Source of the DNA: an uncultured Flavobacteriales bacterium
GTDB taxonomy: Bacteria; Bacteroidota; Bacteroidia; Flavobacteriales_G; Salibacteraceae
Assembly (NCBI GenBank): GCA_913020435.1
Contig: CAJVZZ010000005.1
Coordinates: 1-64,000 of the forward strand
Direction: 5' to 3'
Length of the DNA: 64,000 nucleotides
Part shown: one piece after another, positions 58,188 to 63,248 of the stretch
How the letters are laid out: each line of letters begins with the position of its first letter
Position numbering within the stretch: the first letter of the stretch is position 1
Translations under genes and position numbers: made by a program
The notes under the pieces: generated by a model
Seen by the model: only the letters and a program-made list of their open reading frames with translations
The model's database searches: none
What the model was told of the DNA's origin: nothing

Positions 58188-59759
58188 TTAATTACTGATT
58201 TTCTTGCCGTTCTCATACTTAATCGTTTTTAAAACAGATCCATCTTCTTTAAAAATTTCCCAAGTACCATTCTGTTTGCCTGATTTGTAAAAATTAATTG
58301 CCATAATACTTCCTCCTGAATAGTATATTTCTGTTTTACCATCAAGCTTTCCCTTTTTATAGTTCATCACTCTTTGAAGCTGTCCATAATCTAGGAAGTA
58401 CTTCCACTCTCCTATTTGACGATTGTACTTATGCGGTCCTTCTTGCCTTACGCCACCTTTTGGGTAGAAGTATTGCCAATGACCATCTTTAAATCCATTT
58501 TCATACCCACCTTTTTCTCGCTCTCTACCTGACGAAAACCAAAACGCCCAGTCTCCTTCTTTTAGTCCATTCTCTATATCACCTTCATAATTCATCTTAC
58601 CGTTTTCATACCAACCTTTCCAATGGCCTTCCATTAAACCAGCTTCAAAATTTCCTTCATCCTTCTTTGCACCTGAGTCATACCAACTTGTCCAAATCCC
58701 TTGCTCTTTACCATTTTTATAGTTTCCTTCCTGTAGTTTTTGACTCGATTCAAACCAGGTTGACCAAAGTCCATTTTTCTGTCCACTAGAATACATTCCT
58801 TTTCGCCAGACTTCGCCCGTTCGATACCAAAACCTCCATTCTCCATTTTTCTTTCCATCCTTAAAGTTACCTTCTGACTCTTTTTGACTACTATTTTCAT
58901 AGAAATAAGTCCAAGTGCTGTCTTGTAAATTTTTAAGGAAAAATCCTTTCATATAAATCTTGTTGTTATCACTCCAAAATTTCCAAAACCCATTTTTCTT
59001 TCCAGCAATGTAGACTCCTGCGACTCTTGGCTCTCCACCTTCAAAAAACGCCTCCATTTTCCCTTGGCGTTCACCATTAAGGAAAGTCTCGAACCTTTTG
59101 ATTTGACCAGACGCATAATAAACCTCCCATTCTCCATCTTTTAAGCCGCTTACATAAGAGCCCTTTTCCTTTTTACTTCCAGTTTGAAAGTAAGATATGT
59201 ATTCACCATTCAAAGCACCTTTTGAATAATTCGAAACTGAAATAATTTCTTCTCCAACATACTTATTTACAAGACCATTCCCTTCAGTCAAAGTTATTGT
59301 ACCATCTAATGCTCTAGCTTCAACTACTTTTACATTTCGCTTATCCCAAAGTTCTTGTTTGTAGAGCTTTCCATTTGGAAAATAATAATTCCAAATACTA
59401 TCTTTAAACCCATAATCAAACTGACCAATCGATTTGATTTTACCGTCAGTAAACCAAGAGATATATGCGCTATCTTGAATATTGAAACGAAAAAAGCCTT
59501 CATTTTGAGCTTGACCGTTATTGAACCAGATTTTCACAGATCCATTTAACTTTCCTTCGATATAGTTTGCTTCCTCTCTAATCTTACCATCCTTATACCA
59601 GTATTTCCACAAACCCTCTTCCAATCCATAAAAATAAGTTCCTTGACTTCGTTTTATAGTACTGTCCATATCATGGAAATCAGTAAATTTAAAAACCGAT
59701 TGCGCATTAGATATTTGAGCCATAAAAACCAAAACAAGTAGGAGCATTAATTTATTCAT
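58188..59759 (-). CDS. YwqK/MORN-type repeat protein, exported
   Basis: A 523-residue protein with a signal peptide (MNKLMLLLVLVFMAQISNAQ), then an almost continuous array of about 18 repeats of roughly 23 residues. The core is W-x-x-W-[YF]-x-x-G-x-x-x-x-E-G-x-[YF]-x-x-G-x-[KR]-[ND]-G, for example GIWTSWYDSGAKKDEGNFEA and GHWKGWYENGKMNYEGDIEN. This matches the MORN-like YwqK repeat; related proteins are sometimes labelled antitoxins, but nothing here supports a toxin-antitoxin role. It probably forms an elongated beta-sheet structure in the periplasm or on the surface. It is monocistronic with its own terminator. Confidence 0.85.
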   Translation of the reverse strand: MNKLMLLLVLVFMAQISNAQSVFKFTDFHDMDSTIKRSQGTYFYGLEEGLWKYWYKDGKIREEANYIEGKLNGSVKIWFNNGQAQNEGFFRFNIQDSAYISWFTDGKIKSIGQFDYGFKDSIWNYYFPNGKLYKQELWDKRNVKVVEARALDGTITLTEGNGLVNKYVGEEIISVSNYSKGALNGEYISYFQTGSKKEKGSYVSGLKDGEWEVYYASGQIKRFETFLNGERQGKMEAFFEGGEPRVAGVYIAGKKNGFWKFWSDNNKIYMKGFFLKNLQDSTWTYFYENSSQKESEGNFKDGKKNGEWRFWYRTGEVWRKGMYSSGQKNGLWSTWFESSQKLQEGNYKNGKEQGIWTSWYDSGAKKDEGNFEAGLMEGHWKGWYENGKMNYEGDIENGLKEGDWAFWFSSGREREKGGYENGFKDGHWQYFYPKGGVRQEGPHKYNRQIGEWKYFLDYGQLQRVMNYKKGKLDGKTEIYYSGGSIMAINFYKSGKQNGTWEIFKEDGSVLKTIKYENGKKISN

Positions 59760-59868
59760 AACTACAAATTTAGAAGGAAGGCATTGGTTACGCTAATCTT
59801 AAAAAAGAAAAAGTAAACATTACTTCTAGGAAAACTAACACAGTACTTCTTTATAAAAAAAAGATAAC

Positions 59869-60511
59869 TCAATTATTGACTTTCCACAAATACAAAGTAA
59901 AAGCGACTTTGCGATGCCAAATTAATAGAAAAGAATTTCTTTCACATTTCCTTGCACTAACCGTTTGCCTTTGAAAAGCAATAAACATATACATCATATT
60001 TTTGTCGATCTGCTTTATCCTTAAAGTCAAAGTTTCCCATAATCACCAAAGAATCATTAAAACTTTTTAGCTTTTAGAAATTATCTTTCCAAACCGATAA
60101 ACCTTAATCTTCCCACTCTGTAAATCTTACCTTTTTGTTTTTAAACTAGTTTGATAATTAAAAAGTTTACGATCTAACTCAAATGTTTAGGTAAAACACC
60201 CGATATCATGTTTGCACATCAAGACTTCAATTTCTTTTAAAAAATCAGCAGGCACTTTAACAGCGGCATGCAAAAACAACAAGGCACCCCTCTTGATCAG
60301 CAATTGCACCCAAGTTCATTTGATTGGCACGTTAAGAAGCTGGTGAACTTATAAACAGAGCGTTATATTCTGCCGTAATAAATCCAGTATCATCGTTGCT
60401 CTCTTCGTTACAAACAATTATTTCTATAGAATCTGAATTTTCACGGATAGATTCAAGACATTTATCCAGAAAACCTGGTTCACTAAACTTAGGAATTATT
60501 ATACTCAGCAC
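59869..60511 (-). pseudogene. Decayed TIGR04283-type (arsenosugar) glycosyltransferase
   Basis: Between the YwqK-type gene and the DUF547 gene the minus strand encodes, in shifting frames, most of a GT2 transferase of the rSAM-associated TIGR04283 kind. In order: VLSIIIPKFSEPGFLDKCLE (from 60511), SIEIIVCNEESNDDT, SSPAS, an in-frame TAA at 60334-60332, RANQMNLGAIADQEG, a frameshift, LLFLHAAVKVPADFLKEIE to a stop at 60187, then GLSVWKDNF, stop, KLKSFNDSLVIMGNFDFKDK, a frameshift, and VSARKCERNSFLLIWH to a stop at 59869. Intact relatives have GRAKQMNLGA, FLHAD and a C-terminal SARKYEKNS-like segment in this order. At least two internal stops and two frameshifts are present, so no functional protein is made. 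The remnants keep nearly full length (643 bases), which suggests recent decay. Confidence 0.85.
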
Positions 60512-60534
60512 TTTTTACTTGTTTGTATGATATA

Positions 60535-60568
60535 TTGCAAGAAGGCAAACAAAACAAATTTAGGTTTG
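60535..60568 (+). promoter_or_regulatory. Putative promoter of the DUF547-arsS unit
   Basis: TTG (60535-60537), a 23-base spacer and TAGGTTTG (60561-60568) fit the Bacteroidota pattern and lie 19 bases upstream of the ATG at 60587. Confidence 0.5.
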
Positions 60569-60586
60569 CACAAATTATTTAAAATA

Positions 60587-61312
60587 ATGAAACTGCTAGC
60601 AATTGTACTTTTTGGATTATTTACGGTCAACCTATCGGCACAAATTTCTCACAAACAATGGGATGAATTAGTAAAGGAGCATGTTACCGAATCTGGCAAA
60701 GTGTATTACGAAGGTTTTTTAAAAGATAGAGAACATTTAGATGCTTACCTTACTCTTTTATCTAACAACCCTCCAAAGTCCTCCTGGACAAAAAACGAAA
60801 CATTGGCATATTGGATTAATGCTTATAATGCATTTACAGTTCAACTTATTGTTAAACATTATCCCGTTAAAAGTATAAAGGATTTGGGGGGGGCAATCTA
60901 TAAGGTAAATACGTCATGGGATATAAAATTCATTAAAATTGGCAACGAGGAACTAGATCTAAATAATATTGAACATCAAAAAATAAGAGGTCAATTTAAC
61001 GAGCCTAGAATCCATTTTGCAGTAAACTGTGCTTCAGTTTCTTGCCCTAGGCTAAGAAATGAAGCTTTTACTGCAAATAATCTCGAAGTTCAATTGACTG
61101 ATCAAACAGAGTATTTTTTGCAGTATAAAATTAAAAACGATCTTTCTGACCCCAAAAACCCTAAGGTGAGCAAACTATTTAATTGGTATTCCGCAGATTT
61201 TAAAATTGATGGGAAAACGGTAACCGATTTCATTAACAAATATTCTACTTCTAAAGTTCCAGAAGGGACGAGCTTGGATTATTTAGATTATAATTGGAAC
61301 CTAAACCATTAA
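60587..61312 (+). CDS. DUF547 domain protein, exported
   Basis: A 241-residue protein. The ATG at 60587 starts a signal peptide (MKLLAIVLFGLFTVNLSAQ); the longer frame upstream does not look like coding sequence and would include the promoter box. DUF547 hallmarks: ETLAYWINAYNAFTVQLIVK, YPVKSIKDLGG and RIHFAVNCASVSCPRLRNEA. The biochemical role is unknown; in other genomes I associate such proteins with arsenosugar-type rSAM loci. It is followed 4 bases later by the peroxidase-like gene. Confidence 0.88.
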   Translation: MKLLAIVLFGLFTVNLSAQISHKQWDELVKEHVTESGKVYYEGFLKDREHLDAYLTLLSNNPPKSSWTKNETLAYWINAYNAFTVQLIVKHYPVKSIKDLGGAIYKVNTSWDIKFIKIGNEELDLNNIEHQKIRGQFNEPRIHFAVNCASVSCPRLRNEAFTANNLEVQLTDQTEYFLQYKIKNDLSDPKNPKVSKLFNWYSADFKIDGKTVTDFINKYSTSKVPEGTSLDYLDYNWNLNH

Positions 61313-61316
61313 AAAA

Positions 61317-61655
61317 ATGAGTTCAAAAAGTTACTACGATCCAGAAGATTTAAAAAACTTTGGAAAAATCACAGAGTGGAATAAGAATTTAGGCGATAAG
61401 TTTTTCGATTGGTACGGTGATGTGTTCAAACCAGGCGCCTTAACTGCAAGAGAAAAATCATTAATAGCATTAGCTGTTTCCCATGCGGTACAGTGCCCAT
61501 ATTGCATTGACGCTTATACTGTTGATACCTTAGAGAAAGGCTGCAACGAAGAAGAAATGATGGAGGCTGTGCATGTGGCTAGTGCAATACGAGGAGGGGC
61601 TACTCTTGTACATGGAACTCAAATGATGAAAAAAGCCAAGAAACTGAGTATGTAA
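61317..61655 (+). CDS. Arsenosugar biosynthesis-associated AhpD/peroxidase-like protein
   Basis: A 112-residue carboxymuconolactone decarboxylase/AhpD-type protein with a redox CxxC at Cys60-Cys63 (VSHAVQCPYCIDAYTVD) and a histidine-rich helix (EAVHVASAIRGGATLVHGTQ). It matches the small peroxidase-like protein (TIGR04169 type) that accompanies arsS. It could reduce or handle arsenic or peroxide intermediates with its CxxC; this is inference from the family. It lies between DUF547 and arsS with 4- and 27-base gaps. Confidence 0.88.
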   Translation: MSSKSYYDPEDLKNFGKITEWNKNLGDKFFDWYGDVFKPGALTAREKSLIALAVSHAVQCPYCIDAYTVDTLEKGCNEEEMMEAVHVASAIRGGATLVHGTQMMKKAKKLSM

Positions 61656-61682: not shown

Positions 61683-62738
61683 ATGATCAAATCCTTAAAG
61701 GCTAGAGAACATCATTTTTCAGCTACTGAAAAACAATTACATGTTCTGAATGGTGGAGCTTTTGAAGAAGGCACCTTAAATTCTTTTCAAACGCACTTAC
61801 AAGAAATAAATCAATGGCCTCTAAAGCCTAATGATTTGGAAGTATTTCAAGTAAATGTTGGCTATATGTGCAACCAAGTTTGCAAGCATTGTCACGTTGA
61901 TGCTGGTCCTGATCGTAAAGAAATTATGACTAAAGCAACTATGCAGGAGTGCATTGAAGTTATTGCTAGTAATAACATACACACGCTTGACCTAACTGGT
62001 GGTGCACCCGAAATGAATCCAAACTTCCGTTGGTTTGTTGAAAGTGCGGTTGCAGCAGGAGTCAAGGAGGTTATTGTAAGGTCTAATCTCACTATAATTT
62101 TAGCCAATCCAAAATATCACGATCTACCAGAGTTTTTTGCAAAAAATAGAGTTCGGGTGGCTTCTTCTTTACCTTATTATCAAAGAGGAAAAACCGATAG
62201 ACAGCGAGGAGACGGTGTCTTTGACAAGTCGATTAAAGCTTTACAAATGTTGAATAAAGTGGGTTATGCAAATCCAGAAACCGGACTTTTTCTTGATTTA
62301 GTTTACAATCCAAGTGGAGCATTTTTACCTGGTGACCAAGACCAGTTGCAAATGGAATTTAAATCTGCGCTAAAAGAAGATTTTGATATTGAATTCAATA
62401 ACCTTTTTGCTATAACCAATTTACCCATATCAAGGTTTCTAGATTACTTAGTAGCTTCGGAAAACTACGAGGATTATATGGAGAAATTAGTTGGCGCTTT
62501 TAATCCCTTAGCAGTTGATGGCCTTATGTGCAAGAATACCGTTTCAATTGATTGGAAAGGATACATGTACGATTGTGATTTTAACCAAATGCTAGAAATG
62601 AAAACTGCGGGTGAAGGCAGTCAACACATTTCGGAATTCAATCTTGAGGCATTAAAAAAACGAAATATTTTAGTAAACAATCATTGTTTTGGTTGCGCCG
62701 CAGGAGCTGGAAGTAGTTGTCAGGGAACAGTAGCTTAG
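61683..62738 (+). CDS. arsS: Arsenosugar biosynthesis radical SAM protein ArsS
   Basis: Radical SAM enzyme proposed to transfer the 5'-deoxyadenosyl group of SAM to dimethylarsenite, making the precursor of arsenosugars. 351 residues. The [4Fe-4S] motif is YMCNQVCKHCH (Cys63, Cys67, Cys70), followed by DLTGGAPEMNP. The C-terminal domain (DUF3641-like) ends CFGCAAGAGSSCQGTVA with Cys335, Cys338 and Cys346. Some relatives carry selenocysteine in this tail; here it is cysteine and the frame is ordinary. The associated glycosyltransferase on the other side of the locus is a pseudogene, and no arsM (arsenite methyltransferase) is in the window. Confidence 0.93.
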   Translation: MIKSLKAREHHFSATEKQLHVLNGGAFEEGTLNSFQTHLQEINQWPLKPNDLEVFQVNVGYMCNQVCKHCHVDAGPDRKEIMTKATMQECIEVIASNNIHTLDLTGGAPEMNPNFRWFVESAVAAGVKEVIVRSNLTIILANPKYHDLPEFFAKNRVRVASSLPYYQRGKTDRQRGDGVFDKSIKALQMLNKVGYANPETGLFLDLVYNPSGAFLPGDQDQLQMEFKSALKEDFDIEFNNLFAITNLPISRFLDYLVASENYEDYMEKLVGAFNPLAVDGLMCKNTVSIDWKGYMYDCDFNQMLEMKTAGEGSQHISEFNLEALKKRNILVNNHCFGCAAGAGSSCQGTVA

Positions 62739-62744
62739 CTTATT

Positions 62745-63248
62745 CTCCGATAGTGATTTCGTAAAATGCGCCTCAAGTTTCAAGGAAAATCCTACATAAG
62801 AGACTGAGCCAAATTCATTTGAATTTTTATTAATACTAACTTACCAGTTTTAATCATCCCTTAGTAATGGAGACATTTGGGTTGAGTTTGTTCCACTGTT
62901 TCTGAAATGGCAGTGCGAGCAACAAAGATTGATTTGTCTGTAATTCGTTCTCGCATTCAACTGGCGCGAAGGAAATTCCCTTTGTAAAGAGTTCTTCAAA
63001 AGCTCCATTTCCAATTACTGAATTGGAAACTTCCTTTGTGATTTTTATTGAAATTGGGGAACTACTTCCTTAAAGATCCAAAACATTAACTGACCAGTAG
63101 TATCCATATTAAAAACACATACGCCCTTATCTTAATCGGCTTTAGAATCATAATTTTCATTAGCTTTCTCAGTGCAGCCCTCAGAAATACAACTAGAAAT
63201 TAAAACTGAAAGAATTGCCCCAAAAAATAAAAATTCATGCTTTGTGTT
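62745..63248 (-). pseudogene. Decayed coding remnant of unknown family
   Basis: Opposite strand to arsS. Read on the minus strand the interval opens with a lipoprotein-like start without ATG (HEFLFFGAILSVLISSCISE, 63239 down), then KANENYDSKAD, a stop (63134-63132), then in the same frame DKGVCVFNMDTTGQLMFWIF to a stop at 63047. A shifted frame gives VSNSVIGNGAFEELFTKGIS and ALPFQKQWNKLNPNVSITKG to a stop at 62856, and another frame gives NEFGSVSYVGFSLKLEAHFT. These pieces read like one broken lipoprotein or barrel gene. I do not recognise the family. It could alternatively be chance open frames; the long low-stop stretches in series argue against that. Confidence 0.5.

Follow-up and report, generated by a model that had tools for sequence, protein, structure and literature searches.

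Beside an intact arsS unit in an uncultured Flavobacteriales bacterium, a gene for a TIGR04283-type family 2 glycosyltransferase (GT) has decayed into a pseudogene (positions 59841-60511, minus strand, of the window, i.e. the whole 64,000-nucleotide stretch of DNA that was analyzed), and a second TIGR04283 gene, which on tree and identity grounds is of a different, anciently separated subtype, stands intact elsewhere in the same genome. We hold it highly probable that the lost gene, here assigned to subtype A, was ancestrally divergent to the arsS unit, that the second gene, of subtype B, made its loss tolerable and that the arsenosugar pathway, judged from its gene complement, is complete.

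Results

The remnant consists of scattered family 2 GT pieces between a MORN-repeat gene (58188-59759, minus strand; Pfam MORN_2) and a DUF547 gene (60587-61312, plus strand). In a frameshift-aware alignment, residues 1-227 of the intact GT of G003, a member of the same genus, matched window positions 60511-59841 with 44.1% identity over 220 codons. The match is broken by four frameshifts and four in-frame stops and scored 382, whereas 60 shuffles averaged 34.5 (sd 6.1, maximum 56) and the opposite strand reached 52. Similarity to the TIGR04283 family therefore extends over the full length of the gene. A TIGR04283 profile search of the window's own genome (G000) retrieved the remnant with 60.5 bits (E 2.6e-16) and internal stops, the count of which mixes frames; this is below the curated cut-off of 182 bits, the frames being broken. 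With neither an open reading frame nor the full set of conserved motif residues, the remnant is a pseudogene and not a working member of the family. In a 60-row tree, it was the sister of the G003 GT (100/98), on a long branch whose exact length is unreliable. The interval 59841-60511 is thus the decayed orthologue of the intact G003 gene (L072:6656-7342, minus strand) and a true pseudogene of a known family. No RNA family was found by Rfam in 59600-60700, and matches to the sigma-70 consensus were fewer than expected by chance and are uninformative. A preliminary description of this DNA had proposed a broken TIGR04283-type GT on the basis of peptides, all of which are present in minus-strand stop-to-stop frames, and the alignment and profile match bear this out; of the interval it gave (59869-60511), the 60511 end holds, but the 3' end is about 30 bases off.

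As that description had also stated, the unit on the other strand is intact throughout. It comprises the DUF547 gene (241 aa from an ATG shared within the genus; Pfam PF04784, 100.5 bits), whose orthologues in G001-G003 are 78-84% identical, a gene for a TIGR04169 arsenosugar biosynthesis-associated peroxidase-like (CMD/AhpD) protein (61317-61655, plus strand; 183.7 bits, cut-off 120) and arsS, encoding the arsenosugar biosynthesis radical SAM protein (61683-62738, plus strand; TIGR04167, 437.1 bits, cut-off 300), which is the single over-cut-off copy in the genome and carries the radical SAM CxxxCxxC motif as CNQVCKHC. The MORN-repeat gene, which forms the second syntenic boundary of the slot, occupies the same position in G001, G002, and G003. 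It is of note that a second pseudogene lies on the other flank of arsS (62772-63236, minus strand), with the remains of a small secreted or lipoprotein-like gene whose counterpart is intact in G002 (L073:9112-9945) and G003 (L072:9593-10423) and broken in G001 as well. DUF547 genes adjoin TIGR04283 or arsS in many Bacteroidota (L077, L080, L113, L127, L136, L208-L213, L217, L218, and L220) and lie at most 4 kb from TIGR04283 in 29 of 80 TIGR04283 loci, a figure that comes without a background rate. Divergent DUF547/TIGR04283 pairs occur in G006 and G033.

The intact TIGR04283 gene is found on contig C30 (12128-12823), where it encodes an open frame of 231 aa that scores 197.5 bits, over the cut-off, and sits among pathway neighbors in an operon with the order Usp-TIGR04282-TIGR04283-purine nucleoside phosphorylase (PNP), of which TIGR04282, TIGR04283, and PNP are intact. 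Aligned with the remnant, its product fared far worse than the G003 GT (score 150, 31.8% identity). An origin of the C30 gene by recent duplication of the window gene is rejected on these identities (31.8% versus 44.1%) as well as on the tree. Subtypes A (G003 and the window) and B (C30 and G002) are 33-34% identical and are separated in the 60-row tree by a 100/99 branch, A clustering with Saprospiraceae and Maribacter/Cerina genes and B with Flavobacteriaceae, Chlorobiaceae, and other genes, which are in many cases linked to arsS or TIGR04282. Of the genomes reached through subtype A loci, three (G061, G062, and G064) hold more than one TIGR04283 gene, with both subtypes included, so coexistence of A and B is real.

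The preliminary description had advised looking for an intact paralogue and for arsM elsewhere in the genome. The former is the C30 gene; for the latter, there is a candidate on contig C14 (L103:1162-2214, minus strand), a 350-aa methyltransferase that stays under every curated ArsM cut-off (172.5 bits to PRK11873, cut-off 263; 89.5 bits to AsSugarArsM, cut-off 400). All four genus members have an ArsM-like gene of like score, and the candidate probably belongs to a subtype outside the coverage of the models. In the flavobacterial clusters L135, L138, L153, L182, and L191, TIGR04282, PNP, arsM-like, DUF547, and TIGR04283 genes stand in this order in one run, some of these clusters carrying arsS at the edge of the locus.

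Within the genus, G003 has an intact 228-aa TIGR04283-type GT in the equivalent slot, between the same MORN-repeat gene and the same DUF547-TIGR04169-arsS flank, its 181.1 bits being 1 bit short of the cut-off. In G001 and G002, no GT was detectable in the slot, where gaps of 287 and 280 bp remain. The Usp-TIGR04282-TIGR04283-PNP operon is intact in G000 (on C30) and in G002; in G003, no TIGR04283 gene lies between TIGR04282 and PNP, and PNP follows TIGR04282 directly. Because the operon order with TIGR04283 recurs in G005, G008, and G014, which represent three further genera of the family, B is taken as ancestral, and its absence from G003 is best read as a loss. From the G001 assembly, which is 83% complete, the C30 region is missing entirely, flanks included, so that this genome is not usable to judge B. 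Each of the three judgeable genomes therefore has one subtype, A in G003 and B in G000 and G002. By gene identities and a concatenated (unrooted) tree, G000 and G001 are closest, G003 being the most distant by identities. Two genes that separated long ago and seem redundant have clearly been lost differentially within this genus, which, as a kind of event, is ordinary gene loss under redundancy.

Across 60 relatives, arsS was over its cut-off in 24, with a distribution of 9 of the 10 GT-positive and 15 of the 50 GT-negative genomes (Fisher p 0.00065, kinship ignored). Fifteen of the 24 arsS-bearing relatives thus lack a TIGR04283 gene over the cut-off, a count that treats G003 (1 bit under) as positive and is to be read with the incompleteness of some genomes and possible other GTs beyond the model in mind; from this, the GT gene appears dispensable for the retention of arsS. 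These figures also bear on whether the pseudogene might have been a GT of another pathway, such as one for a polysaccharide, that came to lie beside arsS by chance. The score of the G003 orthologue, just under the family cut-off, and the abundance of family 2 GTs (17 matches in the window's own genome, mostly weak) would suit such an origin, but the runner-up family for the G003 protein reaches only 55 bits, each of the five genomes to which subtype A GTs led encodes an over-cut-off arsS, and TIGR04283 and arsS co-occur as given above; we therefore regard a chance neighbor as very unlikely.

The extent of the decay speaks both to its age and to its reality. Eight lesions lie within the 671 bases of the remnant, and 10 of 29 family-invariant residues, defined from ten intact relatives, have been altered by substitution, among them D36, D84, G134, G135, and E160 of conserved motifs. 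The assembly is a draft of 50 contigs, and an error of sequencing or assembly in a gene that is really intact might be suspected; the neighboring genes, however, are open frames, the remnant is 44% identical to its G003 orthologue as against 72-96% for the neighbors, and because sequencing errors would leave conserved motifs uneroded, the loss of motif residues argues against this explanation, which is hardly credible. Between G000 and G003, differences at the three codon positions were 0.405/0.323/0.532 for the remnant, 0.151/0.068/0.481 for arsS, and 0.220/0.170/0.514 for the MORN-repeat gene. Intact TIGR04283 genes diverge faster than their neighbors (72% identity between G000 and G002, versus 82% for TIGR04282), so identity alone overstates the decay, which is more safely gauged from the lesions and the lost invariant residues. 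If neutral, the loss of 10 of the 29 residues amounts to some 0.19 changes per site, and hence to an age of about 0.64 (0.30-1.18) of the part of the G000-G001 synonymous divergence (dS 0.589) that falls to G000. This is a rough value, with neutrality and one uniform rate as its assumptions and G001 as the nearest relative compared. The decay would then be about as old as the split of G000 from that relative, within 0.3-1.2 of the branch as a rough estimate, and the gene cannot be called freshly broken, as it had been in the preliminary description.

Discussion

In the literature consulted, no paper was found that names TIGR04283 or assigns the late, post-ArsS steps to tested enzymes. ArsS and ArsM together carry out the first steps (PMC8552651), and a passage of a review citing Cheng et al. 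2021 describes ArsS as adenosylating arsenic in oxo-arsenosugar biosynthesis (PMC12159101). By family names and gene neighborhood, the route in this bacterium may run as follows: the ArsM candidate would methylate arsenite, ArsS would then attach the 5'-deoxyadenosyl group, PNP, to judge by the company it keeps, would remove adenine, and TIGR04282 together with the intact TIGR04283 protein would, on the same grounds, perform the later sugar or aglycone transfers. Given that arsS, the TIGR04169 gene, and the TIGR04282, TIGR04283, and PNP genes on C30 are all intact and that an arsM candidate is present, the arsenosugar pathway is probably complete here and a broken one unlikely. Of the outcomes that the preliminary description had allowed for, a pathway that has lost a step thus finds no support, since an over-cut-off TIGR04283 gene persists intact in the operon and the decay of the GT next to arsS is not in itself evidence of a lost step; use of a second copy is what the genome points to, although that copy is of another subtype and might, as the third outcome has it, make a different product.

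The ancestor of the genus would have carried a subtype A GT divergent to the DUF547-TIGR04169-arsS unit and, in addition, a subtype B gene in the Usp-TIGR04282-TIGR04283-PNP operon. With two genes for presumably one step, the loss of either would have been possible; A is inactivated and B retained in G000, G002 retains B without A, and in G003 A is retained and B lost. The retention of one or the other in three genomes suggests that A and B perform the same step. On the other hand, the two are deeply separated, at only 33-34% identity, and both are kept in some genomes, as might be expected if the pathway had truly been altered, with the loss of the arsS-linked GT changing the end product and the subtype B enzyme of C30 doing a different step. 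Against such an alteration, which we consider unlikely, stand the presence of exactly one subtype in each judgeable genome of the genus and the position of B inside a TIGR04282-PNP operon, the same pair being found in G003 with A alone. A related proposal, that A and B are alternatives at one step, that the retained subtype sets the type of arsenosugar or arsenolipid and that members of the genus switched product by losing the arsS-linked subtype, is likewise doubtful. Tolerated loss of subtype A in the presence of B is the reading that we favor.

The remnant is homologous over its full length to the NCBIfam TIGR04283 arsenosugar biosynthesis glycosyltransferase family, to which the G003 gene and the C30 copy score close to or over the cut-off, but differs from it in being dead, with its stops, frameshifts, and lost motif residues. 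The arsS-centered arsenosugar clusters of Bacteroidota have as common partners arsS, TIGR04169, DUF547 (which may be an unrecognized protein of the pathway), TIGR04282, PNP, arsM-like, and TIGR04283 genes, whereas in this genome they are split among no fewer than three places (C5, C30, and C14) and the arsS-adjacent GT has been lost. The pattern resembles differential (reciprocal) loss of redundant copies, in that one of two copies remains per genome in three genomes, with one visible remnant; the copies here, however, are ancient subtypes and not recent duplicates. Together, these data caution against equating a dead GT next to arsS with a dead pathway. The genus amounts to a natural complementation experiment, with A in one species and B in others alongside the same arsS, TIGR04282, and PNP genes, and this pattern of retention suggests that the subtypes are interchangeable and offers a matched gene set for testing the step.
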